DNA from: Prevotella sp.
Lineage (GTDB): Bacteria; Bacteroidota; Bacteroidia; Bacteroidales; Bacteroidaceae
Reading direction: 5' to 3'
DNA: 40,185 bases
NCBI GenBank assembly: GCA_017960525.1
Contig: JAGCZA010000085.1
Location: 1-40,185 of the forward strand
Shown: piece after piece, positions 1 through 30,580 of the stretch
How positions within the stretch are numbered: the stretch's first letter is position 1
Layout of the letters: every line of letters starts with the position of its first letter
Translations under genes and position numbers: made by a program
The notes under the pieces: generated by a model
Seen by the model: the letters and a program-made list of their open reading frames with translations, nothing else
What the model was told of the DNA's origin: nothing
Databases searched by the model: none

Positions 1-364
1 AAAAATTTGTATTACCTTTGCACATAAGAACGTATGTAACAATTTGATTTTAAGACGATTCAAAGTTACAAATTTTCCTGCAATTATGCAAGGAATGCGT
101 TCTCTTTTTTATATCTATGAATAATTCAGGCTAGAGAATTTCAGGGTTTGCTCCGTCCAAACTCTCACCCCGGTTTGCCTATAGTCTGGCTTTGGTGCCT
201 GCAATGTCTAAATCCCCAGTCGCCAAAAGAAATATTTGTCGCCTTCCGAAGCAAAAAAGAGGCGGAAAAATTGGAAGATGTGAGGCGAGACATCGCAAGC
301 CTTGCGGAGATTTGTTTGTTTGGGATATTATTTGTACCTTTGCAGAAAATTAATAGCGAAGACG
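1..364. other. Intergenic region upstream of ftsZ, no supported gene
   Basis: I see no convincing gene here. A TAccTTTG box lies at 13-20, so a transcript may start near position 27. Positions 75-96 can fold into a small hairpin (TTCCTGCA against TGCAAGGAA, one bulge). Around 144-166 the text GTTTGCTCCGTCCAAAC resembles a degenerate single copy of the 22-nt hairpin repeat found intact at 15965 and 30382. An open frame at 148-477 runs through the ftsZ promoter and start and is probably chance. Its part around 240-305 looks mildly protein-like (charged, helical) but I cannot assign it. Confidence 0.5.
311..342 (+). promoter_or_regulatory. Bacteroidetes-type promoter for ftsZ
   Basis: TTTG at 311-314, then 20 nt, then TAccTTTG at 335-342. 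This matches the Bacteroidetes sigma-ABfr -33/-7 pattern. Transcription should begin a few bases after 342, which excludes the upstream in-frame start at 302 and supports ATG 365. Confidence 0.8.
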
Positions 365-7553: not shown

Positions 7554-8903
7554 ATGATGAGACAAAGACAATTGTTGTGCCTCGTGCTGCTGATGGCAAG
7601 CGTGGTGGCCGTGGGAAAGAAGAAAGTGGTGGTTAAACAGGAACTATGGCCTAACGGGGAACCGATGGCCGAATGGTTTAGTGACACCACGAAGGTGAAG
7701 GTACAGGACTTGGGCCGCCAGTACGTGCTGACCGATTACGGCGTGCGCCAAGGTACTACCGACATTCAGACAAAGGCCATTCAGGCCGTAATCGACAAAG
7801 CCGCCCAGGAGGGTGGGGGAGTCGTGGTGGTGCCTAAGGGCACGTTCTTTAGCGGTAGCCTGTTCTTCCGCCAGGGCACGCATCTCCATCTCCAGGAGGG
7901 GGCTGTGCTGAAGGGTAGTGACCGCATACGCGACTTTGAGATACGCGAGACGCGCATAGAGGGCCAGACGTGCAAATACTTTGTCGCGCTGGTCAATGCC
8001 GACGGGCTGGACGGCTTTACCATCACGGGAAAGGGCACCATCGACGGCAATGGCGAGAGTTACTGGGAGCAGTTCTGGATTCGCCGCCAGTGGAACCGCC
8101 AATGCACCAACAAGGACGAGCAACGGCCACGATTGACTTACATATCGAATTGTAAGAATGTGACCGTTCAGGACGTGCGGCTCATCAACTCGCCCTTCTG
8201 GACGAACCACGTCTACCGCTCAGACCACGTGCGCTACCTCGACCTCTACATCTACTCCTCTACGCAGGACATCAAAGGCCCTTCGACCGATGCCATCGAC
8301 ATCGACGTGTGCCACGACGTGGTGGTGCGCGGCTGCTATATGAATGTGAACGATGACGCCGTGGTGCTGAAGGGCGGCAAGGGCACTTTTGCCGACAAGG
8401 CTCCAGAGAACGGCCCCTGCTATAACATCTTGGTGGAGGATTGCGAATATGGCCACGTGCACGGTTGTATGACTCTCGGCTCGGAGAGTGTGCACGACTG
8501 GAACGTCATCTTGCGTCGTTGCCGTGTGGGGGCTGCCACCCGTGTGCTCTGGCTGAAGATGCGCCCCGACACGCCGCAACACTACGAATATGTCACCGTA
8601 GACCAGATGGAGGGCCGCACAAATATGTTCCTTGTCTGCAAGCCCTGGACACAATTCTACGAGAAGCAGGAGCGCGAGGATATGCCGATGTCGCAATGCA
8701 ACAACATCACCCTGCGCAATATCCGTATGGATTGCACCACGTTCTTCGACGTGGAGAAGTCGGACAAGTATCTGTTGAAGAACTTTACTTTCGAGAACAT
8801 CGACGTCACGGACAAGGCCAAAGTGCCTGCTTTCTCGGTGAATCCCATTGAGAACCTCACGTTGAGGAACGTCACTATTAATGGCAAAAAAACAGACCAG
8901 TAG
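7554..8903 (+). CDS. Glycoside hydrolase family 28 (polygalacturonase-type) enzyme
   Basis: 449 aa, exported. A hydrophobic signal segment spans residues 5-20. An in-frame start 30 nt upstream (7524) would place ten extra residues before it, so ATG 7554 (or 7557) is preferred. The body is a right-handed parallel beta-helix of the GH28 family, which hydrolyses galacturonic acid linkages in pectin. Catalytic motifs are visible in order: STDAIDID (244-251, the NTD motif), NDDAVVLKGG (266-275, the DD motif), GHVHG (300-304, the GHG motif with one inserted residue) and LWLKMRPD (332-339, the substrate-binding RIK equivalent). The H-V-H spacing and the Ser in place of Asn suggest a subtype such as an exo-acting or rhamnogalacturonan enzyme. 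It ends 7 nt from the convergent OstA-like gene. No clear own promoter is seen; the region before it is rearranged. Confidence 0.85.
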   Translation: MMRQRQLLCLVLLMASVVAVGKKKVVVKQELWPNGEPMAEWFSDTTKVKVQDLGRQYVLTDYGVRQGTTDIQTKAIQAVIDKAAQEGGGVVVVPKGTFFSGSLFFRQGTHLHLQEGAVLKGSDRIRDFEIRETRIEGQTCKYFVALVNADGLDGFTITGKGTIDGNGESYWEQFWIRRQWNRQCTNKDEQRPRLTYISNCKNVTVQDVRLINSPFWTNHVYRSDHVRYLDLYIYSSTQDIKGPSTDAIDIDVCHDVVVRGCYMNVNDDAVVLKGGKGTFADKAPENGPCYNILVEDCEYGHVHGCMTLGSESVHDWNVILRRCRVGAATRVLWLKMRPDTPQHYEYVTVDQMEGRTNMFLVCKPWTQFYEKQEREDMPMSQCNNITLRNIRMDCTTFFDVEKSDKYLLKNFTFENIDVTDKAKVPAFSVNPIENLTLRNVTINGKKTDQ

Positions 8904-8910
8904 CACACGC

Positions 8911-10572
8911 TTACTGGTCTCTTTTTGCCTTTTTCGTCTTCATCTGGGTGCCCTCCTTCTTGGGGCGCCAGTTGAAGATGTCGTGCTTGGAGAGCGGACG
9001 CACGTAGTCGAACCACTGGAAACCTTCAAGGAAACGGTTGGCTGGCGGTATCTGCGACATAGGGTACATCGTGCCCTCGCTTCGGGGCGACCAGATGCGC
9101 TTCAACTTGCGTTGCTCCATAAACATACGAAGTTCGCTGGTCTCCATATAGACAAGGCCCACATACGAAGTGTCGGCATTATCAACGGGGTAGTAGTCCA
9201 CGATGACGTTGTCCTTGGCCATCGTCTCGTGGATTTCGCCGTTGGTGAAGTAGGCGAACATCTCTTTTGACGACACCTGGTTGTACACGTCGTCGCCCTG
9301 GAGTTTCTCAATCGAGAAAGCCTGGTTGATGACGTGGGCGTGGTCAATCACCGAGTCACGCATAAACACCTGAATCTCTTCGCCCACGAGCTGCTGGTTG
9401 CCGTTCCACACGATGGGGTCTATGTGCATGGTGAGGCAGGAGTCTTTCGAGTTGTAGACCAGCGAGTCGCAGACGGCCTGGAGGTCGATGCGGAAGGCTC
9501 TCACCTTGTTGTAGGCGTGCATGATGCGGTAGACGGAGTCGGTGTTCAGATTGTAGGAAAAGACCTTGAAGGTGTCGGCGTGGATGAAGAGTGAGTCGCG
9601 CTGCGAGTAGTCTATCGACACGGCTTTGTCGGTGCACATAGCGTAGCCCGTGGAGTCGTTGTAGTAACCGTAGTCGCATAGCAGGATGTTCTTGTTCACC
9701 GTGTCGTTGTATTCTACATTGACGAAGGCCTCGCTAATGCCGCTATTGCCGTCGTGCCAGAGGCTATCGCCCACCAGCGTGCGCCCGCCGTTGTCCAGTC
9801 GCGAGCGGTTGAGCAACTCGGCTTGTTCGGTGGCGGTGTTGTAGGAGCCTTGTTCGGAATAGATGTGGCTACGGCCGGAGACAATGTCCGACGGCCCCAT
9901 AATGTTTGCCAACTTGGTGCGGGTGTTGTAGTTCAGGGTGTCGGTGGTGAGCGTGAACTTCTTGTCGACCATCTTCACGTCGTTGGTGAAGAAGGCGTCT
10001 TTCGTGTCGGTGTGGTATTCGCCGTAGACGGAAGTCAGCGTGGTGGTCTTGTCCACCAGTTTGCCGCCTGTGTTGTAGTAGCCCAGATTGTCGATGCGGT
10101 CGAAGTAGAGGTTTTCCGTGTAGAGCGTGGTAGTACGGTTGCGTAGCACCACCTGCTTACCTTGGATGAAGGCTTTGGCCTCCATCGTCTTGCTATTCCC
10201 GTCGTAGTAGCCGTAGTCGCTGGTTAGCGAGAGCGTGTCGCCCTGCACCATTCGCACGTTGTGCCAGGCCTCAAACGAGTTGCTGGCCTCGAAGAAGTTG
10301 GCCGAGTCGCAATAGAGGCGTGCCCCGTCGTGCTCAAACTGAACCTTGCCCGTAAGCACCTGGGCGTCGTTGTTGCGCCAACGGTCGTAGCGTAGTTCGT
10401 CGGCGTGAACCAGATAGACGCGGTCTTTGTCTTTCTTCTGGGGCTTGGCGCGCTCTGTACCATTGAAGAATGATGCGCGCCCAGCGTTAGTGAATAGTGA
10501 ATAATGAACGATGAACAGTGCCGTAAACACTATCCATAATATCCGTCCAGATGTATAGTTTCTCTTACTCAC
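8911..10572 (-). CDS. OstA/LptA-like outer-membrane biogenesis protein
   Basis: 553 aa. An N-terminal signal segment (about residues 9-32) includes the unusual text FIVHYSLFTN, encoded by TTCACT-type repeat DNA. From residue 50 on the chain is rich in short beta strands (YLVHADELRYDR, LTGKVQFEHDGARLYCDSA, and so on), the pattern of OstA/LptA-type beta-jellyroll proteins that carry lipopolysaccharide across the periplasm. Bacteroidetes have a long OstA-like protein of this size (OstA_2 type). It is the last gene of a minus-strand run guaB - parvulin - parvulin - OstA-like, fitting outer-membrane assembly. A 70-nt gap full of TCACTT repeats separates it from the parvulin upstream. In related genomes I recall mutL following; here GH28 follows instead, convergently. 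Confidence 0.8.
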   Translation of the reverse strand: MSKRNYTSGRILWIVFTALFIVHYSLFTNAGRASFFNGTERAKPQKKDKDRVYLVHADELRYDRWRNNDAQVLTGKVQFEHDGARLYCDSANFFEASNSFEAWHNVRMVQGDTLSLTSDYGYYDGNSKTMEAKAFIQGKQVVLRNRTTTLYTENLYFDRIDNLGYYNTGGKLVDKTTTLTSVYGEYHTDTKDAFFTNDVKMVDKKFTLTTDTLNYNTRTKLANIMGPSDIVSGRSHIYSEQGSYNTATEQAELLNRSRLDNGGRTLVGDSLWHDGNSGISEAFVNVEYNDTVNKNILLCDYGYYNDSTGYAMCTDKAVSIDYSQRDSLFIHADTFKVFSYNLNTDSVYRIMHAYNKVRAFRIDLQAVCDSLVYNSKDSCLTMHIDPIVWNGNQQLVGEEIQVFMRDSVIDHAHVINQAFSIEKLQGDDVYNQVSSKEMFAYFTNGEIHETMAKDNVIVDYYPVDNADTSYVGLVYMETSELRMFMEQRKLKRIWSPRSEGTMYPMSQIPPANRFLEGFQWFDYVRPLSKHDIFNWRPKKEGTQMKTKKAKRDQ

Positions 10573-10626
10573 TCCTCACTCTTCACTCCTCACTTATCAC
10601 TTATCACTTTTCACTTTTCACTTATC
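10564..10626. repeat. TCACTT/CTTCAC low-complexity array
   Basis: About nine degenerate 6-8-nt units of the type TCACTCT / TCACTTA fill the gap before the OstA-like gene. In the gene's sense the units read AGTGA, which includes a GGAG-like ribosome-binding purine run. The signal peptide just downstream carries the opposite sense (TTCACT), so the two can pair in the mRNA. Confidence 0.8.
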
Positions 10627-10642
10627 GTTAGGGCGCAGCCCG

Positions 10643-12411: not shown

Positions 12412-12414
12412 ACT

Positions 12415-12456
12415 ACTTTACTCTTATCACTCATCACTCTTCACTCTTCACTATTC
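12415..12456. repeat. TCACTCT low-complexity array
   Basis: About six TCACTCT/TCACTAT-type units just upstream of the frameshifted four-helix-bundle gene, followed by CGTTAG. A second array of opposite sense (11990-12020) lies at the other end of that gene, inside the SurA-like signal peptide, so the pair flanks it as imperfect inverted repeats. Confidence 0.75.
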
Positions 12457-12468
12457 GTTAGCGTAGCG

Positions 12469-14326: not shown

Positions 14327-15835
<1,509 letters not shown>

Positions 15836-15845
15836 TTATTGCGTG

Positions 15846-15853
15846 CAAAGGTA
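15846..15853 (-). promoter_or_regulatory. Promoter -7 box for guaB
   Basis: CAAAGGTA on the plus strand is TAccTTTG on the minus strand, about 35 nt before the guaB start. The -33 half is weak (a CTTG-like text around 15870). Confidence 0.7.
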
Positions 15854-15964
15854 CTATTTTTTCACCACACGGCGTGCAAGTTCAGCCATTAATTAATACG
15901 TTTTAACCCATATTCTTTAGAATTTGCAAGTCTCGCCCCAAAAATCAGGTTTGTCCTAACTATG

Positions 15965-16030
15965 AGATTGGTTCGTCCAAAGTGGTAGATTGGTTCGTCC
16001 AAAGTGGTAGATTGGTTCGTCCAAAGTGGT
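15965..16030 (+). repeat. Three identical 22-nt tandem repeats with TTCGTCC core
   Basis: Three perfect copies of a 22-nt unit (15965-15986, 15987-16008, 16009-16030), each beginning AGATTGGTTCGTCCAAA. Within each unit TTGG and CCAA can pair around a TTCGT loop. The same core, at the same 22-nt period and in three copies, occurs at 30382-30447. It lies about 110 nt upstream of the guaB promoter, in a stretch with no supported gene. Confidence 0.95.
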
Positions 16031-16142
16031 AGGGACGTTATTTGAAAATTGGCATACGATTCCCCCAGACGCGCCTGTGGTAAAGTCAATTTGCCTACAT
16101 CATACGATGCCCTCCCAGTATCGGGGCGGTCTGGCACCCCAA

Positions 16143-16328
16143 AAGCGTCCCACGCGTCCCAGCGTCCCACGTCCCATTTAGTACCTTCCAATTTTCCGAA
16201 AATGTGTAGAGTAGATTCTTATTACTATATATTATTATAATATATAATAATAAACTTGTTAGGGGGGTGGTCTGCATATATGGAACCACCTTAATGGGAC
16301 GTGGGACGCTGGGACGCGTGGGACGCTT
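16143..16328. repeat. 36-bp perfect inverted repeat around an AT-rich core
   Basis: The arm at 16143-16178 is the exact reverse complement of the arm at 16293-16328. Each arm is itself built from degenerate GCGTCCCAC units. The 114-nt interior is mostly AT-rich (16215-16255, many TATAT runs) and carries a further small hairpin near 16267-16291 (GGTGGT against ACCACC). I see no coding potential inside and no obvious target-site duplication. It could be a miniature mobile element or a large cruciform/RNA hairpin. Confidence 0.9.
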
Positions 16329-16468
16329 CGGGCTGTCTTTTCCTGAAAAAGGTTGACTCGCCCGCCTGGGGAAAGTTGACTACTTTCACTGAAGCGGTTG
16401 ACTCTGTTCCTAAGAACGTGGACTTCGTACGGATATTCGTCGTCCATACTAAAACCCCGCCGACCACG

Positions 16469-16613
16469 CAATTCCGGCGTAAGATTCAGGCCGCAACGGG
16501 GCTTACGGCGGCCAACTACATCCTGGTCATCCGAATGGAAGAGGCCAAACGCCTGCTGGCGCAACGTCCCAAGTACCACTCCGTCAGACTACATCAAATC
16601 GTCTGCCCAATAG
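16469..16613 (+). pseudogene. Remnant of an AraC-family regulator
   Basis: The frame at 16469 reads QFRRKIQAATGLTAANYI followed by RMEEAKRLLAQRPKY, a clear AraC-type first helix-turn-helix (compare QLRRKxQAxTGxSPxxYI...RLxxAKxLL). Immediately after, the next frame gives TPSDYIKSSAQ and a stop at 16611-16613, which looks like the C-terminal end of such a protein. The second helix-turn-helix between them (about 40 residues) is missing, so an internal deletion with a frame change is the simplest reading. No intact upstream part is visible. Confidence 0.7.
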
Positions 16614-16698
16614 GCCGCCAAGCCGCACTTTTTCCCCTACTAAATCCCCCAAAATCTCTTCGGTCAATTGCCTTTGTGTCTTTTTTTCCCGCTTCCGC

Positions 16699-16729
16699 TT
16701 GGTGGTTTACAAATAAAGTAGTACCTTTG
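16699..16729 (+). promoter_or_regulatory. Promoter for thrS
   Basis: TTG at 16699-16701, 20 nt, then TAccTTTG at 16722-16729, about 30 nt before ATG 16760. No T-box or other leader element fits in the short 5' region. Confidence 0.75.
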
Positions 16730-16759
16730 CACCCGTTTTACTAAACATATCTCGTAATT

Positions 16760-18703
16760 ATGATTAACATTACTTTCCCGGACGGTTCTGTTCGCTCGTA
16801 TGAGCAGGGCGTTACCGGGCTTCAGATTGCCGAGAGCATTTCGCCGGCTCTGGCACGCAGCATCGTGAGTTGCGGAGTGAATGGCGAGACCGTAGAGTTG
16901 AACCGCCCCATCAATGGCGACGCAAGCATTGAACTTTACAAGTTTGACGACGAGCAGGGCAAGCACACTTTCTGGCACACAAGTGCCCACTTGCTGGCTG
17001 AGGCGCTCCAGGAGTTGTATCCTGGCATTCAGTTCGGCTTCGGCCCTGCCGTGGAGAATGGCTTCTTCTATGATGTGCTCCTGCCCAACGGCGAGATGAT
17101 CAAGGAGAGCGACTTCCCCAAGATTGAACAGAAGATGAAGGAACTGGCTGGCAAGAAGGAGCCTGTGGTGCGCCGCGAAGTGCCCAAGGCCGAAGCCCTG
17201 AAGCAATTTGCCGCCGGCGGCCAGACCTACAAGTGCGAGCACATCGACCAGGATTTGGAGGACGGTTCTATCACCACCTATACGCAGGGCAACTTTACCG
17301 ACCTTTGTCGCGGCCCGCACCTCGTCGATACAGGCGAAATCAAGGCCGTGAAGTTGACCGCCGTGGCCGGAGCCTTCTGGCGTGGCGATGCTTCGAAGCA
17401 ACAATTGCAACGTCTTTACGGTATTTCGTTCCCCAAGAAAAAGATGCTCGACGAATACCTCGTAATGCTCGAAGAGGCCAAGAAGCGCGACCATCGTAAG
17501 ATAGGCAAGGAGATGGAACTCTTTATGTTCTCCGACAAGGTTGGCAAGGGTTTGCCCATCTGGTTGCCGAAGGGAACGGAGTTGCGCCTTCGCTTGCAGG
17601 ACCACTTGCGCAAAGTTCAGAAGCGTTTTGGGTATCAGGAAGTTATCACTCCGCATATCGGATCAAAAAATCTCTATATCACCAGCGGCCATTGGGACCA
17701 TTACGGCAAAGATTCGTTCCAGCCCATCCATACGCCAGAGGAGGACGAGGAGTATCTGTTGAAGCCGATGAATTGCCCCCACCATTGCGAGATCTTCGCT
17801 TGGAAGCCCCGCTCGTACAAGGACCTGCCCCTGCGCATTGCCGAGTTCGGTACCGTCTATCGCTACGAGCAGAGCGGCGAGTTGCACGGCCTCACCCGTG
17901 TGCGCTCGTTCACCCAAGACGACGCCCACCTCTTCTGCCGTCCTGACCAGGTGAAGCAGGAGTTCCTCAACGTGATGGACATTATCGGTATCGTGCTCTC
18001 CGCCTTCGGTTTCAACTTCGAGGCTCAGATTTCGCTCCGCGACCCCAACGACCACGAGAAGTATGTGGGAACCGACGAGGACTGGGCTTTGGCCGAGAAA
18101 GCCATTCAGGAGGCTTGCGCCGAGAAGGGCCTGAACGCTAAAGTGGAATATGGCGAGGCCGCCTTCTACGGCCCCAAACTCGACTTTATGATTAAAGACG
18201 CAATCGGTCGCCGTTGGCAATTGGGCACCATTCAGGTGGACTACAACCTGCCCAAGCGCTTCCAGTTGGAATATACCGACGAGGACAACACGAAGAAGAC
18301 GCCCGTGATGATTCACCGCGCTCCCTTCGGCTCTATGGAACGCTTCTGCGCCGTGCTTATCGAGCACACCAGCGGCCACTTCCCCCTCTGGCTCACGCCC
18401 GACCAGGTGGCCATCCTGCCGTTGTCGGAGAAGTACAACGACTACGCCCAGAAGGTGTTGAAGCAATTCGACTTGCAGGGCGTGCGTGGCACCATCGACC
18501 TGCGCAACGAGAAGTTGGGCCGCAAGATTCGCGACAACGAGTTGAAACGCATCCCCTATATGGTCATCGTTGGTGAGAAGGAGGAGGCCGAGGGGCTCGT
18601 CTCTATGCGCCAGCAGGGTGGTGGCGAGCAACGCACTATGACCATCCAGGAGTTCATCGACAAGGTGAACGCCGAAGTTGCCGAGCAGACCAAGAACTTC
18701 TGA
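16760..18703 (+). CDS. thrS: Threonyl-tRNA synthetase
   Basis: 647 aa, cytoplasmic; charges tRNA-Thr with threonine. Domains in order: TGS (1-60), the editing/second additional domain (about 65-225, with [11 protein letters not shown] for the HxxxH site), the class II catalytic core (about 240-535, motif 2 [28 protein letters not shown] in two parts, zinc ligand Cys339 in MNCPHHC) and the anticodon-binding domain (540-647). The MNCPHHC text replaces the more usual NCPGHC. Length is normal. It stands alone: the infC-rpmI-rplT genes that commonly follow thrS are absent, and a strong terminator comes right after. Confidence 0.97.
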
Positions 18704-18729
18704 TAGGAAGGCCTGCATACATTCAACCT

Positions 18730-18767
18730 AAAGCCCGCACTATCCACTTATGGATGGTGCGGGCTTT
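18730..18767. terminator. Strong hairpin terminator between thrS and the PIN gene
   Basis: A 17-bp stem (AAAGCCCGCAC...) with one mismatch or wobble and a CTTA loop, ending in GGGCTTT. It lies 26 nt after the thrS stop and 28 nt beyond the end of the convergent PIN gene, so it can serve both strands. Confidence 0.85.
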
Positions 18768-18795
18768 GACGACTAAAGCATCCTAATATATTGGT

Positions 18796-19242
18796 CTAAC
18801 CTTTGATGTGCTCTTCAGGGAAGTATTTGGCAAGGAAATCTTTTGGCTCCAATGTCTTCACGGTGCTGGCGAAGTCGAAGTCCTTGACGTTGCGGGTGAC
18901 GATAAAGTCGGCTCCGGCCTGTTCAGCAGAATAGTATTGAAGGGCATCCTCGAAGTCGCGAGGTTCCAAAGCAAGGGCACGGTCTATAGCCTTTTCGCCT
19001 ACGGGTACGATGGTGAATAACTCGCGAATACCCTTTATAGTTTCATAGAAAGCCATAAGGGGTATATCCTTTCGGGTGCTATATTTTATGTTAGCGATAG
19101 ACAAATCGGAAACAAGCAAAAGAATATCACCTGTTGCCGACAAACTAAAAAGCCTCATTGCCTCATTGAAACCTATGGGGCGATGCTGAATATAATCAAG
19201 GAAGATGTTTGTGTCAATAAACACGGAAATACTATTGCCCAT
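18796..19242 (-). CDS. PIN-domain toxin-like nuclease
   Basis: 148 aa from ATG 19242 (MGNSISVFIDTNIFLDY). The upstream in-frame start at 19284 lies well inside the antitoxin gene and is unlikely. PIN features: the first acidic motif IDTNIFLD, the central LSIANIKYSTRKD segment, the DFEDALQYYSAEQAGA block with acidic residues, and ADFIVTRNVKDF near the end. PIN toxins are Mg-dependent ribonucleases cutting tRNA, rRNA or mRNA. The preceding small gene overlaps it by 11 nt, the standard toxin-antitoxin arrangement. Target unknown. Confidence 0.8.
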   Translation of the reverse strand: MGNSISVFIDTNIFLDYIQHRPIGFNEAMRLFSLSATGDILLLVSDLSIANIKYSTRKDIPLMAFYETIKGIRELFTIVPVGEKAIDRALALEPRDFEDALQYYSAEQAGADFIVTRNVKDFDFASTVKTLEPKDFLAKYFPEEHIKG

Positions 19243-19486
19243 ACTTCTCCAGCATATATTCTTCTTTGTCTTTTTTCCAGTCATCTGTCTGGCAGGCGGA
19301 GAACGCGCCTGCGTATTTGTCCACCAATGCTAGGCGGCGTTTTTGTTCTGGTGTAAGTTCCTCCCTTTTCTTGGCAGGCACGTTCACGGTCAGGAAGAGG
19401 TAGATCTTCTCCAGTAGGGCTGTGTCTTTGTCGTCAATCTGGTTTATCAGGTTCACCGACGATTGTTTCATACTAAGCGCTGTCAT
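19232..19486 (-). CDS. Antitoxin-like partner of the PIN protein
   Basis: 84 aa (or 79 from the second Met). It is helical and charged, with a Lys/Arg/Glu-rich middle (PAKKREELTPEQKRR) and a C-terminal DWKKDKEEYMLEKYG segment, which I associate with Bacteroidetes antitoxins paired with PIN toxins and which would wrap the toxin. The stop overlaps the toxin start by 11 nt. No clear DNA-binding fold is recognised at the N-terminus, so autoregulation cannot be claimed. The pair has its own promoter at 19541-19572. Confidence 0.65.
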   Translation of the reverse strand: MTALSMKQSSVNLINQIDDKDTALLEKIYLFLTVNVPAKKREELTPEQKRRLALVDKYAGAFSACQTDDWKKDKEEYMLEKYGQ

Positions 19487-19540
19487 TCCTGTTCTGTTTT
19501 AATGATTTACGATGTAAAGGATTTCTTCCTAATCTGTGTG

Positions 19541-19572
19541 CAAAGGTACAAAGAATCGAGTGAACTTCCAAA
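19541..19572 (-). promoter_or_regulatory. Promoter for the toxin-antitoxin pair
   Basis: On the minus strand TTTG (19572-19569), 20 nt, then TAccTTTG (19548-19541): a full consensus match. It leaves a leader of about 50 nt before the antitoxin start. Confidence 0.8.
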
Positions 19573-19632
19573 TATTTTGTCGGAATTGTTAAGTGCGTCA
19601 TTTGACTTTGTCGCTTTCCGCTCTTTAACTTG

Positions 19633-20970
19633 TCAGGATGAGAGGCGGTTTAGTTCCAGGTATTTGTTGATGACGTCGACGGAGAGGGCTTGGGGGGTGG
19701 TGAGGAGCGAGAGAATGCCGTATTGGCGGAGGGTGTGGGAAACCAGTTGCTGGTCGTGCACGAACTTCTCGGCGACGACGCGCTGGTAGTAGGTTTCAAT
19801 GGTGGTGCCGTCTTTCCCCTTTTCCTTTGCGTCTTTCCCTTTTTCCTTTATCACTTCCTTTAGTTCCACGTCCTCGAAGAAGACTACCAGTAGTTGGTGC
19901 TTGCGGGCCACTTGGCGCAGGAAAGGCAATTGGCGGCGAAGGGCGGGCATAGAGGTGAACGAGGTGTAGAGAATGAGGAGCGAGCGCTGGCTGACGTGAC
20001 GGCCAAGAGCCGTGAGTAGGGCGGAGTAGTCGGTCTCGCCGAAGACGGTCTTCTCGGCGTAGAGAGCCTCTTGAAGGGTTTGCAAGTGCCCACTTTGCCG
20101 CGATGCGGGGATGAATGTCTCCATCTGGCTACTGAAGGTGATGAGGCCAGCCTTGTCCTGCTTGTTTACGGCCACGAATGAGAGCACCAGCGAGGCGTTG
20201 ATGGCATAGTCGAGCAACGTCATTCCGCCAAAACTCTGTTGCATCATACGCCCCTTGTCGATGACGGAAAACACCTGGCGGGAGCGTTCTTCCTGATAGA
20301 CGTTGGTCATCAGGCGAGAGCGTCGGGCGGTGGCTCTCCAGTTGATGGTGCGATAGTCGTCGCCGCTAACATATTCCCTTATTTGCTCGAAGTCGGTGTT
20401 GTTTCCTATGCGCCGTATGCGCTTGATTCCCATTTCGTTAAGTTTGTTGCTTTTAGCCAATAGTTCATATTGGCGAAGCATGATGTACGAGGGGTAGACC
20501 TTCACCTCTTGTGGCTGGCAAAGGGTGAATCGGCGGCTGACCAACCCTATTGGCGAGGTGGCAAAAACGCGCACTTGGCCGAAGCCGTAGGAGCCTCGTT
20601 CCGTTGGGCGCAACTGGTAGACGATAGTGGTGTCGCCCCTTGGGGGGATGGTGGCGCGGAAACTGACGTCGCGCCGTTGGAAGACGAAGGGAATCTCGTC
20701 GATGACCTCAACGCCGATGGTGAAAGGGTAGTTGCTCTCCAATCGTATGCGCACGGGATTGTCGTCGCCGTTGGAGAAGCGTTCCACCATACGCCGCTCC
20801 GCGTAGAGGCCCTTTTGCCGCCACAATATTACTACGTCGGCTATGAAGGCGATGAGCAATAGCAACAACACCCATCGGCCAATGGTGAATAGGACGGGAA
20901 CCAAGAATCCTCCTGCCACCATCAAGATGACGGCCAGCATGAGGAGGAAGAATCGGCGCGGGAGAAACAT
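19633..20970 (-). CDS. DUF58-family membrane-anchored protein
   Basis: 445 aa. Two hydrophobic segments at about residues 6-25 and 28-48 anchor it, followed by a beta-rich region (60-170) and the DUF58 signature FEQIREYVSGDDYRTINWRATARR (two parts, about 195-220). The C-terminal half resembles a von Willebrand A-like fold (VFSVIDKGR, LLDYAINASLVLSF). Such proteins are usually encoded with a MoxR ATPase, which is absent here. A charged insert KEKGKDAKEKGKDG (about residues 375-390) comes from a 21-nt direct duplication (19811-19852). The gene begins 3 nt after recJ, so it is the likely last gene of that operon. Function unknown; chaperone-like or envelope roles have been proposed for the family. 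Confidence 0.8.
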   Translation of the reverse strand: MFLPRRFFLLMLAVILMVAGGFLVPVLFTIGRWVLLLLLIAFIADVVILWRQKGLYAERRMVERFSNGDDNPVRIRLESNYPFTIGVEVIDEIPFVFQRRDVSFRATIPPRGDTTIVYQLRPTERGSYGFGQVRVFATSPIGLVSRRFTLCQPQEVKVYPSYIMLRQYELLAKSNKLNEMGIKRIRRIGNNTDFEQIREYVSGDDYRTINWRATARRSRLMTNVYQEERSRQVFSVIDKGRMMQQSFGGMTLLDYAINASLVLSFVAVNKQDKAGLITFSSQMETFIPASRQSGHLQTLQEALYAEKTVFGETDYSALLTALGRHVSQRSLLILYTSFTSMPALRRQLPFLRQVARKHQLLVVFFEDVELKEVIKEKGKDAKEKGKDGTTIETYYQRVVAEKFVHDQQLVSHTLRQYGILSLLTTPQALSVDVINKYLELNRLSS

Positions 20971-20973
20971 GGG

Positions 20974-22698
20974 TCAGACGGACTCGCTGGGCTTGATGTC
21001 CTCAATTTGTAGTTGCACCTCGCTACGCTTGTAGACGTTGTCCTCAATGGTGTAGACGATGTTGAACGAGCGACGCGATTTGATGTAGCGTGCCGCCTCG
21101 CTTTGTCCGAAGGCAATGCCGTTCATCACATTCGACGAGCGCGAGTCCACCAGTTCCAACTTGATGTGCTCCTCGTGCTTGCCCACGACCTTCGACGTAC
21201 CGTAGTCGTAGACATTACGGGTGCAGAAGAGCGGCTTCAGGTTGTCCGGGCCGTGTGGTGCGAACTTCTTCAAGTCGTTGTGCATCTTCTTGGTAATGTC
21301 CTTGAAGTCGATTTCGGCATCAATGTTGAGCGTGGCCTCCGTCTGCTCGATGTGAATGTTCTTGCTCACGTAGTCCTGGAAGCGTCGGCGGAACTCAGGA
21401 ATGTTCTCCACCTTCAGAGAGAGGCCTACGGCGTAGGTGTGGCCGCCGAAGTTCTCCAACAGGTCGCGGCAACTCTTGATGGCATCGTAGACGTCGTAGC
21501 CGGCCACGGAGCGGGCCGAACCGCTGGCAATGCCGTTGGTGCACGAGAGCACCACCGTGGGGCGGTAGTACATTTCGGTCATACGCGAGGCGACAATGCC
21601 CACCACACCTTTCTTCCAGCCCTCGTCGTAGAGCACGATGGCGGGCTGGTGCTCCTGGTTCTCCAGACGCTCCACAATCTGGTTGGCCTCCTCGGTCATC
21701 TGCTTGTCGATGTCTCGTCGCTGGTCGTTGTACTTGTTGATGTGAACGGCCAGGGCGAGCGCCTTCTTGAAGTCGCGCTCCACGAGCAGGTCGACGGTTT
21801 CCGTACCGTTTTGCACGCGCCCGCTGGCATTGATGCGCGGCCCAATCTTGAAGATGATGTCGCTCATGGTGATTTCTCGCCCTGAGAGTCCGCAAGTCTC
21901 GATGATGGCCTTCACGCCCACGGAGGGGTTCTGGTTCAATTGTTTCAACCCGTGGAAGGCGAGGATTCGGTTCTCGCCCATCACCGACACGATGTCGGCG
22001 GCAATGCTGATGGCGCAAAAGTCGAGCAGGGGGATGAGTTGCGAGAAGGGAATGCCGTTGTTCTTGGCAAAAGCCTGCATAAACTTGAATCCCACACCAC
22101 ACCCGCAAAGGTCTTTGAAGGGGTAGGTGCTATCTTCGCGCTTGGGGTTGAGAATGGCCACCGCCTCTGGCAAATCGTCGTCAGGCACATGATGGTCGCA
22201 CACGATGAAGTCGATACCCAGTTCCTTGGCGTAGGCAATCTCGTCGACGGCCTTGATGCCGCAATCGAGCACGATGATGAGTTTCACCCCATGTTCGGCG
22301 GCCAGGTCGAGGCCCTTCTTGCTGATGCCGTAGCCCTCCTCGTAGCGGTCGGGGATGTAGTACTCCAGGTTAGAGTAGAACTGTTGTAGGAACTTGTAGA
22401 CCAGGGCCACCGCCGTGCACCCGTCCACATCGTAGTCGCCATAGACCATAATGCGTTCCTTACGCCCCATCGCGTCGTTCAGACGGTCGACGGCCACATC
22501 CATGTCGTTCATCAGGAACGGGTCAATGAGTTCGCTCAGCATCGGGCGGAAGAAGCGCTTCGCCGCCGACTCGGTGCGTATGCCCCTTTGCAGGAGCAAT
22601 TCGGCCAGCACAGGGCTCATGCCAATCTTGTCGGCCAGTTCTTTAGCCGTCTGTTGTCGCTCTGGTGTGGGTTGTTCGTAATTCCATTTAAAGTTCAT
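20974..22698 (-). CDS. recJ: Single-stranded-DNA-specific exonuclease RecJ
   Basis: 574 aa. A 5'-3' exonuclease acting on single-stranded DNA in recombination and repair, cytoplasmic. DHH-family motifs: GDYDVDG (87-93, motif I), LDCGI (144-148, motif II), CDHHVPDD (167-174, motif III, the DHH triad), NPKRE, and the DHHA1 region with GGHTYAVGLSLK around residue 420, followed by the OB-like C-terminal domain. Length is normal. It starts 25 nt after ilvN and is followed within 3 nt by the DUF58 gene, so all are probably co-transcribed. Confidence 0.95.
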   Translation of the reverse strand: MNFKWNYEQPTPERQQTAKELADKIGMSPVLAELLLQRGIRTESAAKRFFRPMLSELIDPFLMNDMDVAVDRLNDAMGRKERIMVYGDYDVDGCTAVALVYKFLQQFYSNLEYYIPDRYEEGYGISKKGLDLAAEHGVKLIIVLDCGIKAVDEIAYAKELGIDFIVCDHHVPDDDLPEAVAILNPKREDSTYPFKDLCGCGVGFKFMQAFAKNNGIPFSQLIPLLDFCAISIAADIVSVMGENRILAFHGLKQLNQNPSVGVKAIIETCGLSGREITMSDIIFKIGPRINASGRVQNGTETVDLLVERDFKKALALAVHINKYNDQRRDIDKQMTEEANQIVERLENQEHQPAIVLYDEGWKKGVVGIVASRMTEMYYRPTVVLSCTNGIASGSARSVAGYDVYDAIKSCRDLLENFGGHTYAVGLSLKVENIPEFRRRFQDYVSKNIHIEQTEATLNIDAEIDFKDITKKMHNDLKKFAPHGPDNLKPLFCTRNVYDYGTSKVVGKHEEHIKLELVDSRSSNVMNGIAFGQSEAARYIKSRRSFNIVYTIEDNVYKRSEVQLQIEDIKPSESV

Positions 22699-22723
22699 TC
22701 TATATTGTTGTTTTTTTGTTTTC

Positions 22724-23293
22724 CTACGGAAGGAGTTGCGAGCGTTCCCTTTGCTCCAGGAACTCGCTCACCTGCTCCTGCTTGCCGCGTGTGACGGCTA
22801 TTCGTCCAGAGCGTGTGTATTGCAACACGCAATTGAACTGGTCGAGGGCGCGGTAGAGTTCTATGATCTGCTCCGTCACCCCGTTGAGCATTGCTATGAC
22901 GTATGTTGGGTTGACCTCTATGATGCTGGCCTGGTAGCGTCTGATGGTGCGCGACACTTCGGGGTTTTGCATCACGATGTCGGTCGATAGTTTGTAGAGT
23001 GCCGTTTCGCGTATGAAGAGTTGCTCGTTGGTGAAGAAGTTGGCCTTCACCACGTCAATCTTCTTCTCTATCTGTCGTGTGATTTTCACCACTTGGTCTT
23101 CGTAGCACCAGGCGGTGATGGTGTATTTGTGGACGTGGGGAATGCTTGATGCCGAAACGTTCAGGCTCTCAATGTTCACCTGCCGGCGTGTGAACACCGC
23201 CGTTATCTGGTTCAGAATACCCGCAATGTTCTCTGAGTAGACCAGCAGGGTGTATAGTTTCTTCTCGTCTTCCATAACTTCACTTTCTCTCAT
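22724..23293 (-). CDS. ilvN: Acetolactate synthase small (regulatory) subunit
   Basis: 189 aa (183 from the second Met at 23275). It contains an N-terminal ACT domain (about 12-85: YTLLVYSENIAGILNQITAVF, RRQVNIESLNVS) that binds valine for feedback control, and the longer C-terminal domain of ilvN/ilvH-type subunits (about 95-175). It activates and regulates IlvB. Its start codon shares the last A of the ilvB stop (TAATG), so translation is coupled and subunit ratios are linked. The name ilvH would be equally defensible. Confidence 0.92.
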   Translation of the reverse strand: MRESEVMEDEKKLYTLLVYSENIAGILNQITAVFTRRQVNIESLNVSASSIPHVHKYTITAWCYEDQVVKITRQIEKKIDVVKANFFTNEQLFIRETALYKLSTDIVMQNPEVSRTIRRYQASIIEVNPTYVIAMLNGVTEQIIELYRALDQFNCVLQYTRSGRIAVTRGKQEQVSEFLEQRERSQLLP

Positions 23294-25032
23294 TAGGAAT
23301 CAATCTCCAGCAACATTTCCTCGACGCTCTTTCCGGGAGGCGTCATCGGCATTACGTTGGCGTCGGGCTTGATGGCGCACTCCAGCAGGTAGGGGCCTTT
23401 TGCCGAGAGCATACGTGCCACCTTCGCCTCCAGGTCTTCGCGCTCCACGGCCAGGTCGTAGCCTATGCCGTAGGCTTGGGCAATGAGGTCGTATCGGGGG
23501 TTGACCATTGGTGTGAACGACTGGCGCCTGTCCCAGAACATATCCTGCCACTGGCGCACATTGCCCAGGTAGTTGTTGTTCAGGAGAATCATCTTGACGG
23601 GGGCTTTCTGCTCCATAATGGTGCCCAGTTCCTGAAGGTTCATCTGGAAGCCTCCGTCGCCGCAAAACATACAGACGGTTCTTTCGGGAGCGCCGAATGT
23701 GGCGCCTATGGCGGCCGGCATTCCGAAGCCCATTGTGCCCAGTCCGCCGCTGGTGACGATTGAGCGGCTACGGTTGTAGTGGAAATAGCGTGCGGCCAGC
23801 ATCTGGTTTTGGCCCACGTCGGTCACGAGTATGGCCTCTCCCTTCGTCTGCTCGGCCACCACGTTCACCACTTCGCCCATAAGCAACGGGCCGCTGGTGG
23901 GGTGTATGGCCGGCTCTATGACCTTCTGCATCTCTTCGTTGAACAGGGGCTGGAAAGAGTCTTTCCACTCGGTGTGGTCGGCCTTCTGGAGCAGGCGGGT
24001 GATGGCCGGCAGGGTCTCGCGGCAATCGCCTATCACGGGCACGTCGGCGTGTATGCACTTGTCAATCTCCGACCTGTCTATGTCGAGATGGATAATCTTC
24101 GCCTGGGGCGCGTAGGTCGAGGGCAGACCCGTGACGCGGTCGCTGAAGCGCATACCTATGGCCACAATGACGTCGGCCTCCTGTGTCTTCACGCTCAGGG
24201 CATATTGGCCGTGCATTCCGAGCATACCCTTGTTCAGGGGGTGCCGGCTCGACAATGCTGAGAGCCCCAGGAGGGTGCGGCCTGCGGGAATGTCGGCCTT
24301 TTCCAGGAACTCCAGCAACTCTTTGTGGGCGCCGGCAAGTTCGACACCCTGACCCACGAGGGCCAGAGGGCGCCGGGCGCTATTGATGAGTCGGGCGGCT
24401 TCGCCGATGGCCTGTTCGCTGGGAGTGGGGTAGGGCACGTAACTTCGCACGAAGTCGACGTGTGCGGGGCCTTCCCATTGGCAATTGTGTATCTGTGCGT
24501 TCTTGGGGAAGTCGAGCACCACGGGGCCTGGTCGGCCGCTACGGGCGATGTAGAAGGCGCGGCTCACGGCCCAGGCCACATCGTCGGCGTGGCGTATCTG
24601 GTAACTCCATTTCGAGATGGGTTGCGCCACGCCCACGAGGTCAACTTCCTGGAACGCGTCTGTTCCCAACGCGCCGATTCCCACCTGTCCGGCAATGACC
24701 ACAATGGGTGTAGAGTCGAGCATTGCGTCGGCCACGCCCGTCAGGGTGTTGGTGGCTCCCGGGCCGCTGGTCACGATGGCCACGCCCACCTTTCCGCTCA
24801 CACGGGCGTAGCCCTGTGCAGCGTGTACGGCGCCCTGTTCGTGGCGCACGAGTATGTGGTCGAAGGCCTTGGTGTCGCCCCTTGTGTAGTCGTAGAGCGA
24901 GTCGTAGACGGGCATTATGCTTCCGCCAGGATAGCCGAAGATGGTGGTCACGCCCTCGGCCTTCAAGGCCCGCATCAGGGCTTCCCTTCCGGTGATGGTT
25001 TCTCCTGTCGTGCTGGTCTGCTTGTTGTTCAT
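23293..25032 (-). CDS. ilvB: Acetolactate synthase large (catalytic) subunit
   Basis: 579 aa from ATG 25032. An upstream in-frame start at 25053 would lie inside the preceding gene; 25032 comes one base after that gene's stop. It condenses two pyruvates, or pyruvate with 2-oxobutyrate, using thiamine diphosphate, FAD and Mg, at the entry to valine, leucine and isoleucine synthesis. Visible: IFGYPGGSIMP (31-41), the catalytic glutamate E65 in VRHEQGAVHAAQGYAR, and the thiamine-diphosphate motif CGDGGFQMN (GDG 458-460) ending in LLNNNYLG. The neighbours ilvC and ilvD, often linked in Bacteroidetes, are not in this window. Confidence 0.97.
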   Translation of the reverse strand: MNNKQTSTTGETITGREALMRALKAEGVTTIFGYPGGSIMPVYDSLYDYTRGDTKAFDHILVRHEQGAVHAAQGYARVSGKVGVAIVTSGPGATNTLTGVADAMLDSTPIVVIAGQVGIGALGTDAFQEVDLVGVAQPISKWSYQIRHADDVAWAVSRAFYIARSGRPGPVVLDFPKNAQIHNCQWEGPAHVDFVRSYVPYPTPSEQAIGEAARLINSARRPLALVGQGVELAGAHKELLEFLEKADIPAGRTLLGLSALSSRHPLNKGMLGMHGQYALSVKTQEADVIVAIGMRFSDRVTGLPSTYAPQAKIIHLDIDRSEIDKCIHADVPVIGDCRETLPAITRLLQKADHTEWKDSFQPLFNEEMQKVIEPAIHPTSGPLLMGEVVNVVAEQTKGEAILVTDVGQNQMLAARYFHYNRSRSIVTSGGLGTMGFGMPAAIGATFGAPERTVCMFCGDGGFQMNLQELGTIMEQKAPVKMILLNNNYLGNVRQWQDMFWDRRQSFTPMVNPRYDLIAQAYGIGYDLAVEREDLEAKVARMLSAKGPYLLECAIKPDANVMPMTPPGKSVEEMLLEIDS

Positions 25033-25033
25033 A

Positions 25034-25846
25034 TCAGTCTTCGGCAAACTCAATGAGGTTCAGGTCTTCCGCGTCTTCGTCGTTGTCGCCTCCGCCGAGG
25101 TCCATCATCGTTGAGTAGTTCTCCTCGGTGATTTCGTCGTCGTTGGGTTCTTCTATCTCGACATCGTCCTCGTCGGGCTTGTTGTAGTTGTCTTCAATCT
25201 CGATGTCCTCGTCCTCGTCGCTTCCGTCGTCGTCATACGAGTTGAACTTCATCCTGGGCTTCTCGGTCTCTGGCTTGGCTTTTGCGAAGATGGCCTCCAC
25301 CCAGGTTCCCTTGGGCACTTCGAGCACCTCGTAGCCGTCCTGCACCTTCTTCTCGTACATTCCCCCCTTCTTGTGCAGCCTCTCTTTGGGCAGGGTGGTG
25401 GTGGAAATGTCGAAGCCGTTCTCGATGATGTCCTTGATGCTTTGCGAGAGCGAGTCCCACCCGCCGCCGAAGTTGCGGTCGAGCACCTCGATGAGTTTTG
25501 CGGCCGAGATGTGGCGAATGTTCTCGTAGGTGAGGTCGGTGACGCGCACGATGGGGCGCTTCTTGATGGCCCACACCACCTTCTGGTTGTCGTCGAGCCG
25601 GACGAGTCCCACCTTGTAGCCCTGTTTCTCGTATTTCTGCTTGACCGCCGCCGATTCGCCAGGCAATTCTTCTATCATAAATGCCGAGCGCACAATGTCG
25701 GCATAGTGGCGCACGTTGTCTTTCACCTCAGCGTCTTTCTCGGCGCTTTCCCAAAGGCGGAAGACGTCGTTTTCCTGAATGTCCCAGACGGTGCTTTTGG
25801 TCAGCGTCTTCAGCGTCAGGGCCTTCTTTTCTGTTTTTTGCTCCAT
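25034..25846 (-). CDS. Unknown protein with strongly acidic C-terminal tail
   Basis: 270 aa. I recognise no family. The N-terminal 200 residues look like a mixed alpha/beta globular protein without signal peptide (KSTVWDIQENDVFRLWE, then KVVWAIKKRPIVRVTDLTYENIRHISAAKLIEVLDRNFGGGWD in several parts). From about residue 205 on, it is dominated by Asp and Glu (for example DGSDEDEDIEIED). Such tails are typical of proteins that mimic nucleic acid or bind basic partners, but that is only a suggestion. It is the first gene of the probable operon with ilvB, ilvN, recJ and DUF58, with only 1 nt between its stop and ilvB, and carries the operon promoter upstream (25878-25907). Confidence 0.7.
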   Translation of the reverse strand: MEQKTEKKALTLKTLTKSTVWDIQENDVFRLWESAEKDAEVKDNVRHYADIVRSAFMIEELPGESAAVKQKYEKQGYKVGLVRLDDNQKVVWAIKKRPIVRVTDLTYENIRHISAAKLIEVLDRNFGGGWDSLSQSIKDIIENGFDISTTTLPKERLHKKGGMYEKKVQDGYEVLEVPKGTWVEAIFAKAKPETEKPRMKFNSYDDDGSDEDEDIEIEDNYNKPDEDDVEIEEPNDDEITEENYSTMMDLGGGDNDEDAEDLNLIEFAED

Positions 25847-25877
25847 TGCTAATGTTTTTGTTTTTCTGATTATGCTG

Positions 25878-25907
25878 CAAAGGTAGCAAATTTTGCCTAT
25901 CTGCCAA
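25878..25907 (-). promoter_or_regulatory. Promoter of the acidic-protein/ilvBN/recJ operon
   Basis: On the minus strand TTG (25907-25905), 19 nt, then TAccTTTG (25885-25878), about 30 nt before ATG 25846. It faces away from the rarA promoter on the other strand. Confidence 0.75.
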
Positions 25908-25970
25908 CATTAAAACTTTGCTTTAACTCCCTTTAACAGGATTTAACCTCCGAAACTCCCCAAAAAGTGC

Positions 25971-25978
25971 TACCTTTG
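25971..25978 (+). promoter_or_regulatory. Promoter -7 box for rarA
   Basis: TAccTTTG followed by CATC, 23 nt before ATG 26002. The transcript leader must be short. Confidence 0.7.
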
Positions 25979-26001
25979 CATCACTTTTCAATGATACACG
26001 T

Positions 26002-27294
26002 ATGTCACAACCGTTAGCAGAAAGACTTCGCCCCCGCACACTCGACGAGTACATCGGGCAGCAGCACCTGGTAGGCCAGGGGGCTGTTCTCAGGCGTATG
26101 ATAGACTCAGGCCACATCTCATCGTTCATCCTCTGGGGGCCTCCGGGAGTGGGCAAGACCACGCTGGCCCACATCATTGCCAACCGCCTGGAGACACCCT
26201 TCTACACGCTCTCTGCCGTGACCAGCGGTGTGAAAGACGTGCGCGAGGTGATAGACAAGGCCCAGAAGAGCCGGTTCTTCGGCCAGGGGTCGTCGCCCAT
26301 CCTCTTCATCGACGAGATACACCGTTTCTCCAAGTCGCAACAGGACTCCCTCCTGGGAGCCGTGGAGCGCGGCATAGTCACCCTGATAGGCGCCACCACC
26401 GAGAACCCCTCCTTCGAGGTCATCAGGCCCCTGCTCTCGCGTTGCCAACTCTACGTGCTGAAGTCGCTGGAGAAGGCCGACCTGCTACAATTGCTCGACC
26501 GCGCGCTCACCACCGACACGGTGCTCCGCGAGCGGCACATCGACCTCCAGCAGACTGGCGCCCTGCTCCGCTATAGCGGCGGCGACGCCCGCAAGTTGCT
26601 CAACATCCTGGAACTGGTCACCGAGACGCCCGAGGCCACAGACCCGTCGGCACCGCTCGTCATCACCGACGAACTGGTGGAGCGTTGCCTGCAACAGAAC
26701 CCGCTGGCCTACGACAAAGACGGCGAGATGCACTACGACATCATCTCGGCCTTCATCAAAAGCATACGCGGGAGCGACCCCGACGCCGCCCTCTACTGGA
26801 TGGCCCGAATGATAGAGGGTGGGGAAGACCCCCAGTTCATCGCCCGCCGTATGGTGATTTCGGCCTCCGAAGACATCGGGCTGGCCAACCCCAACGCCCT
26901 CCTGCTGGCCAACGCCGCCTTTGACACGGTGATGAAGATTGGCTGGCCCGAGGCGCGCATCGCCCTGGCCGAAGCCTGCGTCTACCTGGCCGCCAGCCCC
27001 AAGAGCAACTCGGCCTATCTGGGCATTGACGCGGCCCTGGCCCTGGTGCGCGAGACGGGCAATCTGCCTGTGCCCCTCCACCTGCGCAACGCCCCCACCA
27101 CGCTGATGAAGCAACTGGGCTATAGCGACGGCTACAAGTACCCCCACGACTTCCCCGGCAACTTCGCCTCCCAACAGTACCTGCCCGACGACCTCACCTC
27201 CACCCGCCTATGGCACCCCCAGCACTCGCCCGCCGAAGAGAAACTCTTCCAGCGAATGACCGCCTGCTGGGGAGAACGGTACGAAAAGGGTTGA
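26002..27294 (+). CDS. rarA: Replication-associated recombination protein A (AAA+ ATPase)
   Basis: 430 aa. RarA/MgsA is a clamp-loader-like ATPase acting at stalled replication forks in the cytoplasm. Features: Walker A GPPGVGKT (46-53), Walker B LFIDEIHRF (101-109, D104, E105), sensor-1 text GATTENPSFE, arginine-finger region PLLSRCQLY, and the C-terminal tetramerisation part with IRGSDPDAALYWMARM and SEDIGLANPNAL. Length is normal. It is strongly GC-rich, and its stop (27292-27294) directly touches the last codon of the convergent restriction gene, leaving no room for a terminator. Confidence 0.96.
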   Translation: MSQPLAERLRPRTLDEYIGQQHLVGQGAVLRRMIDSGHISSFILWGPPGVGKTTLAHIIANRLETPFYTLSAVTSGVKDVREVIDKAQKSRFFGQGSSPILFIDEIHRFSKSQQDSLLGAVERGIVTLIGATTENPSFEVIRPLLSRCQLYVLKSLEKADLLQLLDRALTTDTVLRERHIDLQQTGALLRYSGGDARKLLNILELVTETPEATDPSAPLVITDELVERCLQQNPLAYDKDGEMHYDIISAFIKSIRGSDPDAALYWMARMIEGGEDPQFIARRMVISASEDIGLANPNALLLANAAFDTVMKIGWPEARIALAEACVYLAASPKSNSAYLGIDAALALVRETGNLPVPLHLRNAPTTLMKQLGYSDGYKYPHDFPGNFASQQYLPDDLTSTRLWHPQHSPAEEKLFQRMTACWGERYEKG

Positions 27295-30246: not shown

Positions 30247-30268
30247 TTCTGTTTGCGAAATTTATTTG

Positions 30269-30299
30269 CAAAGATACGAAGAAAATGTGAAAAAAACAA
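30269..30299 (-). promoter_or_regulatory. Promoter for the MmeI-like gene
   Basis: On the minus strand TTG (30299-30297), 20 nt, then TAtcTTTG (30276-30269), about 23 nt before ATG 30246. Confidence 0.7.
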
Positions 30300-30381
30300 T
30301 CCTTCCCGAACTTTTACACATTATTAATAAATTTGCACAGACACGTAACTCAAGGACAAACGCCATATTACTTAACCTCTG

Positions 30382-30447
30382 AGTTTGGTTCGTCCAAACT
30401 GTCGGTTTGCTTCGTCCAAACCATGAGTTTGGTTCGTCCAAACTTTT
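30382..30447 (+). repeat. Three 22-nt hairpin repeats with TTCGTCC core
   Basis: Units at 30382-30403, 30404-30425 and 30426-30447. Units 1 and 3 read AGTTTGG-TTCGT-CCAAACT, a perfect 7-bp stem with a 5-nt loop. Unit 2 has GGTTTG and CAAACC, so the outermost pair changes from A-T to G-C on both sides. The period and copy number equal those of the array at 15965. The array lies between the divergent promoters of the MmeI-like gene and the pectate lyase. Confidence 0.95.
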
Positions 30448-30523
30448 CAGCTGCAGCAGGGGGCTTTTGCGATACATTGTGATAATAATAGTGAAATCAT
30501 TTTCTCGTTTCAGAATTATTTTG

Positions 30524-30531
30524 TACTTTTG
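30524..30531 (+). promoter_or_regulatory. Promoter -7 box for the pectate lyase gene
   Basis: TActTTTG followed by CAG, 49 nt before ATG 30581. Only a weak TTT-containing -33 region is seen around 30508. Confidence 0.6.
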
Positions 30532-30580
30532 CAGCCGCTATAACGAAAACTATCTGAAAACTAACTATATTACTAAAGCA

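Follow-up and report, generated by a model that had tools for sequence, protein, structure and literature searches.

What kind of element places three hairpin units between genes at an exact spacing of 22 bp, and does so at two separate sites of one Prevotella sp. contig? The question comes from a first-pass annotation of the window (the whole stretch of 40,185 nucleotides that was analysed), which had reported two arrays of three units each with an exact 22-nt period. Both arrays were confirmed, at 15967-16025 and 30384-30442, and the features on which the analysis rests are the following.

15967-16025, plus strand: array 1, three identical 15-bp dyad cores (ATTGG-TTCGT-CCAAA), 22-bp period, linker GTGGTAG
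15945-15959, plus strand: decayed fourth unit of array 1, in the 22-bp register, TCAGGTTTGTCCTAA followed by CTATGAG
30384-30442, plus strand: array 2, three cores, 22-bp period, linkers CTGTCGG and CCATGAG
147-161, plus strand: isolated degenerate core TTTGCTCCGTCCAAA, two mismatches, upstream of an ftsZ-like gene
14327-15811, minus strand: IMP dehydrogenase gene (guaB), divergent neighbour of array 1
16760-18703, plus strand: threonyl-tRNA synthetase-like gene, divergent neighbour of array 1
27295-30246, minus strand: MmeI-type restriction-modification gene, divergent neighbour of array 2
30581-33754, plus strand: pectate lyase gene with dockerin and CBM77 domains, divergent neighbour of array 2

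The three cores of array 1 (15967-15981, 15989-16003, and 16011-16025) are indeed identical, each being ATTGGTTCGTCCAAA, with GTGGTAG as the linker. The count of exactly three units per site holds for the clear cores, but the annotation overlooked the decayed fourth unit. Starts of the D1 repeat family at this array fall at 15938, 15960, and 15982. The cores of array 2 are located at 30384-30398, 30406-30420 (one mismatch), and 30428-30442, and the degenerate single copy that had been suspected near 144-166 corresponds to the isolated core at 147-161. When up to three mismatches were allowed, the window contained nine core matches compared to 1.42 ± 1.22 in shuffled sequences, and none of 100 shuffles reached nine; two of the nine matches, at 8197-8211 and 40019-40033 with three mismatches each, are a number at chance level.

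Just downstream of array 1, we observed an inverted repeat of 36 bp, formed by AAGCGTCCCACGCGTCCCAGCGTCCCACGTCCCATT and its complement (16143-16178 and 16293-16328, 114 bp apart), which, read by eye, looks like a second kind of intergenic element. Runs of a repeat of about 7 bp (TCACTTN-like) were also seen at three sites of the window, 10561-10627, 12412-12464, and 36911-36963.

Copy number, placement and unit anatomy in the genome

A search of the whole genome with one mismatch allowed, as the annotation had proposed, returned 427 copies of TTTGGTTCGTCCAAA in 3,974,479 bases. Of these copies 347 are exact, where 0.007 would be expected from the base composition of the window, and the reversed control pattern gave none. 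A scatter of cores without triplets or a 22-nt period, which the annotation had named as the outcome that would undo its claim, was not what we found. The cores form 86 arrays in 701,076 sampled bases, with about three units as the minimum: 54 arrays have three units, 27 have four, four have five, and one has two units and a decayed middle unit. Among 206 steps between units, 202 measure 22 bp, two 44 bp, one 39 bp, and one 29 bp, and all detected units share a single orientation in 82 arrays, the other four being mixed. The triplets with a 22-bp period are a real, genome-wide repeat class. Isolated copies are nearly absent, since 73 core matches (at most two mismatches) lie in arrays and two are isolated, one of them the window copy at 147, in 440,185 bases taken by contig from contigs picked as array-rich. 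Because part of the 701-kb sample was fetched for known triplets, only these 440 kb bear on the absence of single copies. The 86 arrays account for 274 of the 427 copies, from which about 134 arrays are estimated for the genome.

According to open reading frame (ORF) calls, which are crude, the 86 sampled arrays comprise 40 between tandem genes, 23 between divergent genes, 11 between convergent genes, nine inside ORFs, and three at edges, the last being left unplaced. A coding function was rejected for the nine because the ORFs over them, judged from translations alone, look antisense or like N-terminal overcalls, and all 83 placed arrays were judged intergenic. The 74 arrays between genes match the background of intergenic gaps, itself taken from the same array-rich sample (40/23/11 compared to 99/61/25 tandem/divergent/convergent, p = 0.91), and the 40 tandem cases show no preference of orientation relative to genes (18 of 40, p = 0.64). 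For some arrays, a called stop codon is no more than about 20 bp away.

Each unit consists of a 15-bp dyad, TTTGG-TTCGT-CCAAA, with arms of 5-6 bp, and a linker of 7 bp that mostly reads (C/G)(T/C)-NNN-(A/G)(G/C). The cores are perfect in 226 of the 278 units in the 82 single-orientation arrays. The linker vocabulary is small, with 71 distinct forms among 196, and linkers occur in both orientations: the reverse complement is in the set for 143 of the 196, compared to 90 ± 8.5 under independent columns. A unit with the linker CTGGGAG has a stem of 7, compared to a shuffle mean of 3.1 (p = 0.003). Adjacent linkers within an array are identical in 14 cases where 3.6 are expected, and linker pairs common to different arrays are not in excess over chance (9 compared to 6.1 ± 2.5). 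The identical neighbours indicate that units duplicate locally; the genome shows no sign of whole arrays being copied.

Outside the arrays, the flanks show a symmetric AT/GC rhythm over about 21 bp on either side. Left and right flanks are no more complementary than shuffled pairs, and a stem between the flanks was therefore rejected. An all-against-all comparison of the 400-bp flanks yielded 183 matching pairs. In only eight of them does the match come within 1 bp of the array on each side, so the surroundings of most arrays are unrelated; two of the eight, C10 13741/15060 and C18 70985/C75 2217, look like segmental copies. A larger element around the arrays of this genome was rejected as well, because most flank matches lie at varying distance (other dispersed repeats or segmental copies). 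Another dispersed repeat was observed near arrays at varying distance, in the flanks of C6:92796, C83:81679, C8:31959, C75:2217, C146:41229, and others.

Arrays in related genomes

Triplets of GGTTCGTCC at 22 bp with at most one mismatch were found, among 398 genomes of the genus including this one, in this genome and in a single array of the genome G406, and the core is thus nearly restricted to one genome of the 398. In the G406 array, GG-ACGAA-CC and the period of 22 bp are retained, but the arms are AAAGG/CCTTT. Another 59 genomes lack the exact core; 35 of them belong to the genus and are among the 398, and the other 24 belong to the same order. The core pair is absent from genome_contigs and from viral contigs, where records of this or a very near genome were possibly excluded. 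Single cores at at least 80 viral loci, one match each, were taken as chance, and an excess of the reversed pattern in G033 was discarded since it was not seen with a different pattern.

To look at spacing apart from letters, we scanned 1,037,424 bases from 20 genomes of the genus for three-copy tandem hits at any period between 15 and 60, with no period favoured. The scan returned 34 hits at 22, 12 at 23, five at 21, 10 at 44, and 14 at all other periods. These hits are not independent, since neighbours may be one array, several may be one family, and those at 44 mostly repeat the 22-bp period; in addition, sampling was deeper for G026, G024, and G006, once arrays had been noticed in them. 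G026, which was taken as Prevotella veroralis, contributes 44 of the 51 hits at 21-23 together with eight at 44 and none at other periods (52 hits in 300 kb). The remaining hits at 21-23 are in G006 (four) and in G007, G009, and G024 (one each), and none occurred in 15 of the 20 genomes, several of which are represented by very little sequence. G406 gave 15 hits at 22, four at 21, and one at 23 in 280 kb, with one stretch chosen for its known array. From 80 kb of G100, taken as Hoylesella marshii, there were five hits at 22, two at 21, six at 41, two at 42, and two at 44, and some of those at 21 and 42 look like coding repeats. Control DNA (742 kb from 50 kb of E. coli, 80 viral loci, and nine loci of other families of the order) gave nine hits, none at 22 or 23 and two at 21 that look like coding repeats. 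In our own genome sample the same kind of scan returned 90 hits of the main family and 15 others. Period 22 is not dominant outside the main family there (three of the 15), nor in H. marshii, where period 41 is as frequent as 22 (six hits compared to five).

The hits in relatives differ in how far they form hairpins. A stem-length test found significant dyads in 20 of the 51 relatives' hits at 21-23 and in none of 12 controls at other periods, and a first test based on whole-unit circular pairing gave 13 of 51 at p ≤ 0.05. As dyads are significant in only part of the hits, the period is more general than the hairpin. Where arms are present they can change in concert. A TTATACA-N4-TGTATAA family occurs in five of the 398 genomes, and among 40 distinct units of this family, drawn from three species, 30 have A-T as the fifth pair, seven have C-G, and three are unpaired there; full arm pairs in H. 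marshii include TTCTCCA/TGGAGAA. Four loci of G026 (L321, L322, L323, and L326) were observed to be composite elements, in which TTATACA arrays at 22 bp are flanked closely, on one or both sides, by 23-bp arrays of the TTAAGTTAAAG type. A second 22-bp family, AGTTATATACCTTCTAACT and its complement, is present in our genome (C83:7770 and C83:21454) and in G406 (L367:15037). Its linkers, CTCATAG and CTCCCAG (CTATGAG and CTGGGAG in G406), are found in the main family too, which suggests that linkers are shared across families and species.

Some relatives carry their arrays in larger conserved DNA. The main family of G406 has 11 arrays of three units each, one ending at the edge of its stretch, and in eight of the 10 copies that were compared the array sits at the centre of a conserved element about 150 bp long, with about 45 bp in common on each side; the other two have different flanks and were dropped from the alignment. 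Three arrays of H. marshii lie inside DNA that is repeated over approximately 0.44-0.54 kb, and are intergenic in the one locus with ORFs listed. DNA curvature was considered as a common property and rejected, as it holds for the arrays of our genome only: these are predicted to be more curved than intergenic DNA (mean 1.110 compared to 1.046 in a wedge model), and the arrays of relatives are not special (mean permutation p 0.39 over 34 hits). Since some relatives have the two-turn spacing with other letters, it seems that the geometry persists through changes of sequence.

Comparison with known repeat systems

The statement in the annotation that no known class fits proved too strong, the nearest kinds being REP/BIME, the BrickBuilt MITE, and the 22-, 23-, and 41-nt tandem repeats of Porphyromonas gingivalis. 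BrickBuilt is described with 19 copies in one P. gingivalis strain, 1 to about 23 repeats per copy, and a leader and a tail with IS5-like terminal inverted repeats, both intact in four of the 19 (PMC4596501). The Prevotella arrays are like BrickBuilt and the P. gingivalis repeats in being dispersed intergenic tandem units of about 22-23 nt, in few species of the Bacteroidales, with conserved and variable unit parts and predicted stem-loops (PMC4596501). They are unlike BrickBuilt, as described there, in their number (an estimated 134 or so), in having 3-5 units, and in lacking a common leader or tail. Neither terminal inverted repeats nor a common leader or tail, a MITE feature, were found in our genome by flank comparison and flank pairing. 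Six of the H. marshii hits (L379-L381) were seen to share their period of 41 with the unit length of the 41-nt repeats of P. gingivalis.

REP/BIME elements and REPINs are short palindromes that lie between genes in clusters, number hundreds of copies, and are often species-specific (PMC3733652), and the Prevotella arrays are likewise high-copy short palindromes between genes. Unlike REP/BIME, they have a fixed 22-bp direct-repeat phase. The REP tag, an unpaired GTAG/CGTC at one end of the stem-loop (PMC3733652), was not found, CGTC lying in the loop and arm and GTAG in some linkers only. A RAYT gene flanked by repeats was not found either: the one Y1_Tnp match in the assembled part of the genome (E 2.6e-7) is on contig C28, which has no exact core. 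The REP bias to unidirectional or convergent gaps is also absent from the 74 arrays placed between genes. CRISPR repeats are 24-48 bp with unique spacers (PMC3733652), and a CRISPR array was rejected given cores of 15 bp and linkers of 7 bp with heavy reuse.

The arrays work like REP/BIME and resemble BrickBuilt, yet the defining REP and MITE features that were tested fail. What looks new here, as read from the sequences, is one period that recurs with changing letters among species of a genus. No paper on such a case, and none that has both Prevotella and the core, was among the literature matches listed, a search with most subscription papers and all preprints outside its scope.

Explanations for the fixed period

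On balance, we lean toward the arrays being a non-autonomous, non-coding dispersed repeat that spreads in trans and whose two-turn period is set by a protein. In each array, three (up to five) 22-bp units arranged head to tail would make up a single copy of a short intergenic repeat. Its spread would be due to an enzyme that acts in trans, or to conversion between copies, and it would be tolerated wherever no gene is broken. A protein, either the mobilising enzyme or a nucleoid protein, would bind half-sites every 11 bp or so along one face of the helix and would need about three units; the period is probably fixed because this protein reads one face of the DNA. The annotation had likewise placed all units on one side of the DNA for a protein. 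In favour of this, the period holds genome-wide and recurs with unrelated sequences in some species, but no binding protein was identified. The reading as a whole draws on the copy number, the exact steps, the background-like gene contexts, the unrelated surroundings of most arrays, and the recurrence of the period in relatives; against it count the linker pairs, which are not common to different arrays beyond chance, the weakness of period 22 outside the main family in our sample and in H. marshii, and the 15 of 20 sampled relatives with no hit at 21-23. Neither a mobilising gene nor a binding protein was found in our genome, where the Y1_Tnp match lies on a contig with no exact core. One weak Y1 match away from exact cores, together with the absence of Rep3_N, supports neither a RAYT model nor a Rep3_N iteron model.

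The protein could also be the whole reason for the arrays. As functional binding arrays, they would be kept by selection rather than selfish spread, with a nucleoid or regulatory protein binding at least three units to organise or insulate the chromosome. The exact phase, the near absence of singles, the conservation of cores while linkers vary, and the predicted curvature of the arrays in our genome are consistent with this; against it stand the confinement of core triplets to this genome and one G406 array, the background-like gene context, the ordinary curvature of the arrays in relatives, and the lack of a protein candidate, so that we regard it as unlikely, though deserving of serious attention. 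For the protein-binding array that the annotation had expected, gene contexts at background rates give no sign of a regulon. If no protein or enzyme is involved at all, hairpin-driven slippage and template switching may have expanded and homogenised the dyads. Such a purely mutational origin would fit the identical adjacent linkers, the linkers in both orientations, and the compensating arm changes of the TTATACA family, but we find it improbable because it leaves unexplained both the estimated 134 dispersed sites with one core and the favouring of period 22 among unrelated sequences.

Transcribed hairpins acting as terminators or mRNA stabilisers are very improbable. The 5-6 bp arms of each unit and the proximity of some arrays to stop codons would suit them, but 23 of the 74 arrays between genes, both window arrays included, lie at divergent genes, the flanks are not complementary beyond shuffles, and the window from 15400 to 31000 has no Rfam match. 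Plasmid iterons are tandem repeats near two helical turns with several copies in phase, and the 22-bp dyad repeats resemble them, which raises the idea that the arrays bind plasmid or phage replication initiators and possibly titrate them. Viral contigs do hold three-copy 22-bp dyad arrays, at L386:533-587 and L387:2336-2390, found with a search pattern that imposed the period, and the one in L386 is inside an ORF that by look is a putative replication initiator. Unlike plasmid iterons, however, the Prevotella arrays are chromosome-wide. The initiator search, which covered the Rep3_N family only, gave no match in our genome, G406, G100, G006, or G024 (matches were found in G026, G003, and G323), the viral contigs lack our core pair, and the only plasmid match is a 25-base piece with E = 4. 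We therefore give this explanation very little credence.

Returning to the proposed repeat, mobilised in trans and phased by a protein, a wider claim can be made tentatively, as possible rather than probable: Prevotella and its kin may carry elements defined by their geometry, at least three dyad units at 22 ± 1 bp, with letters specific to each lineage. If true, such a class implies a fast-diversifying family of DNA-binding or mobilising proteins that co-evolves with the arrays, and no description of such a family could be found. Since each lineage seems to use letters of its own, comparative genomics could pair units with their readers, which would make the driver of the repeats testable. 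The arrays could also be used as species-specific markers. A repeat class kept by its spacing rather than by its letters would open a new way to study the spread of non-autonomous DNA in gut and oral bacteria and to find out what reads DNA in two-turn steps.
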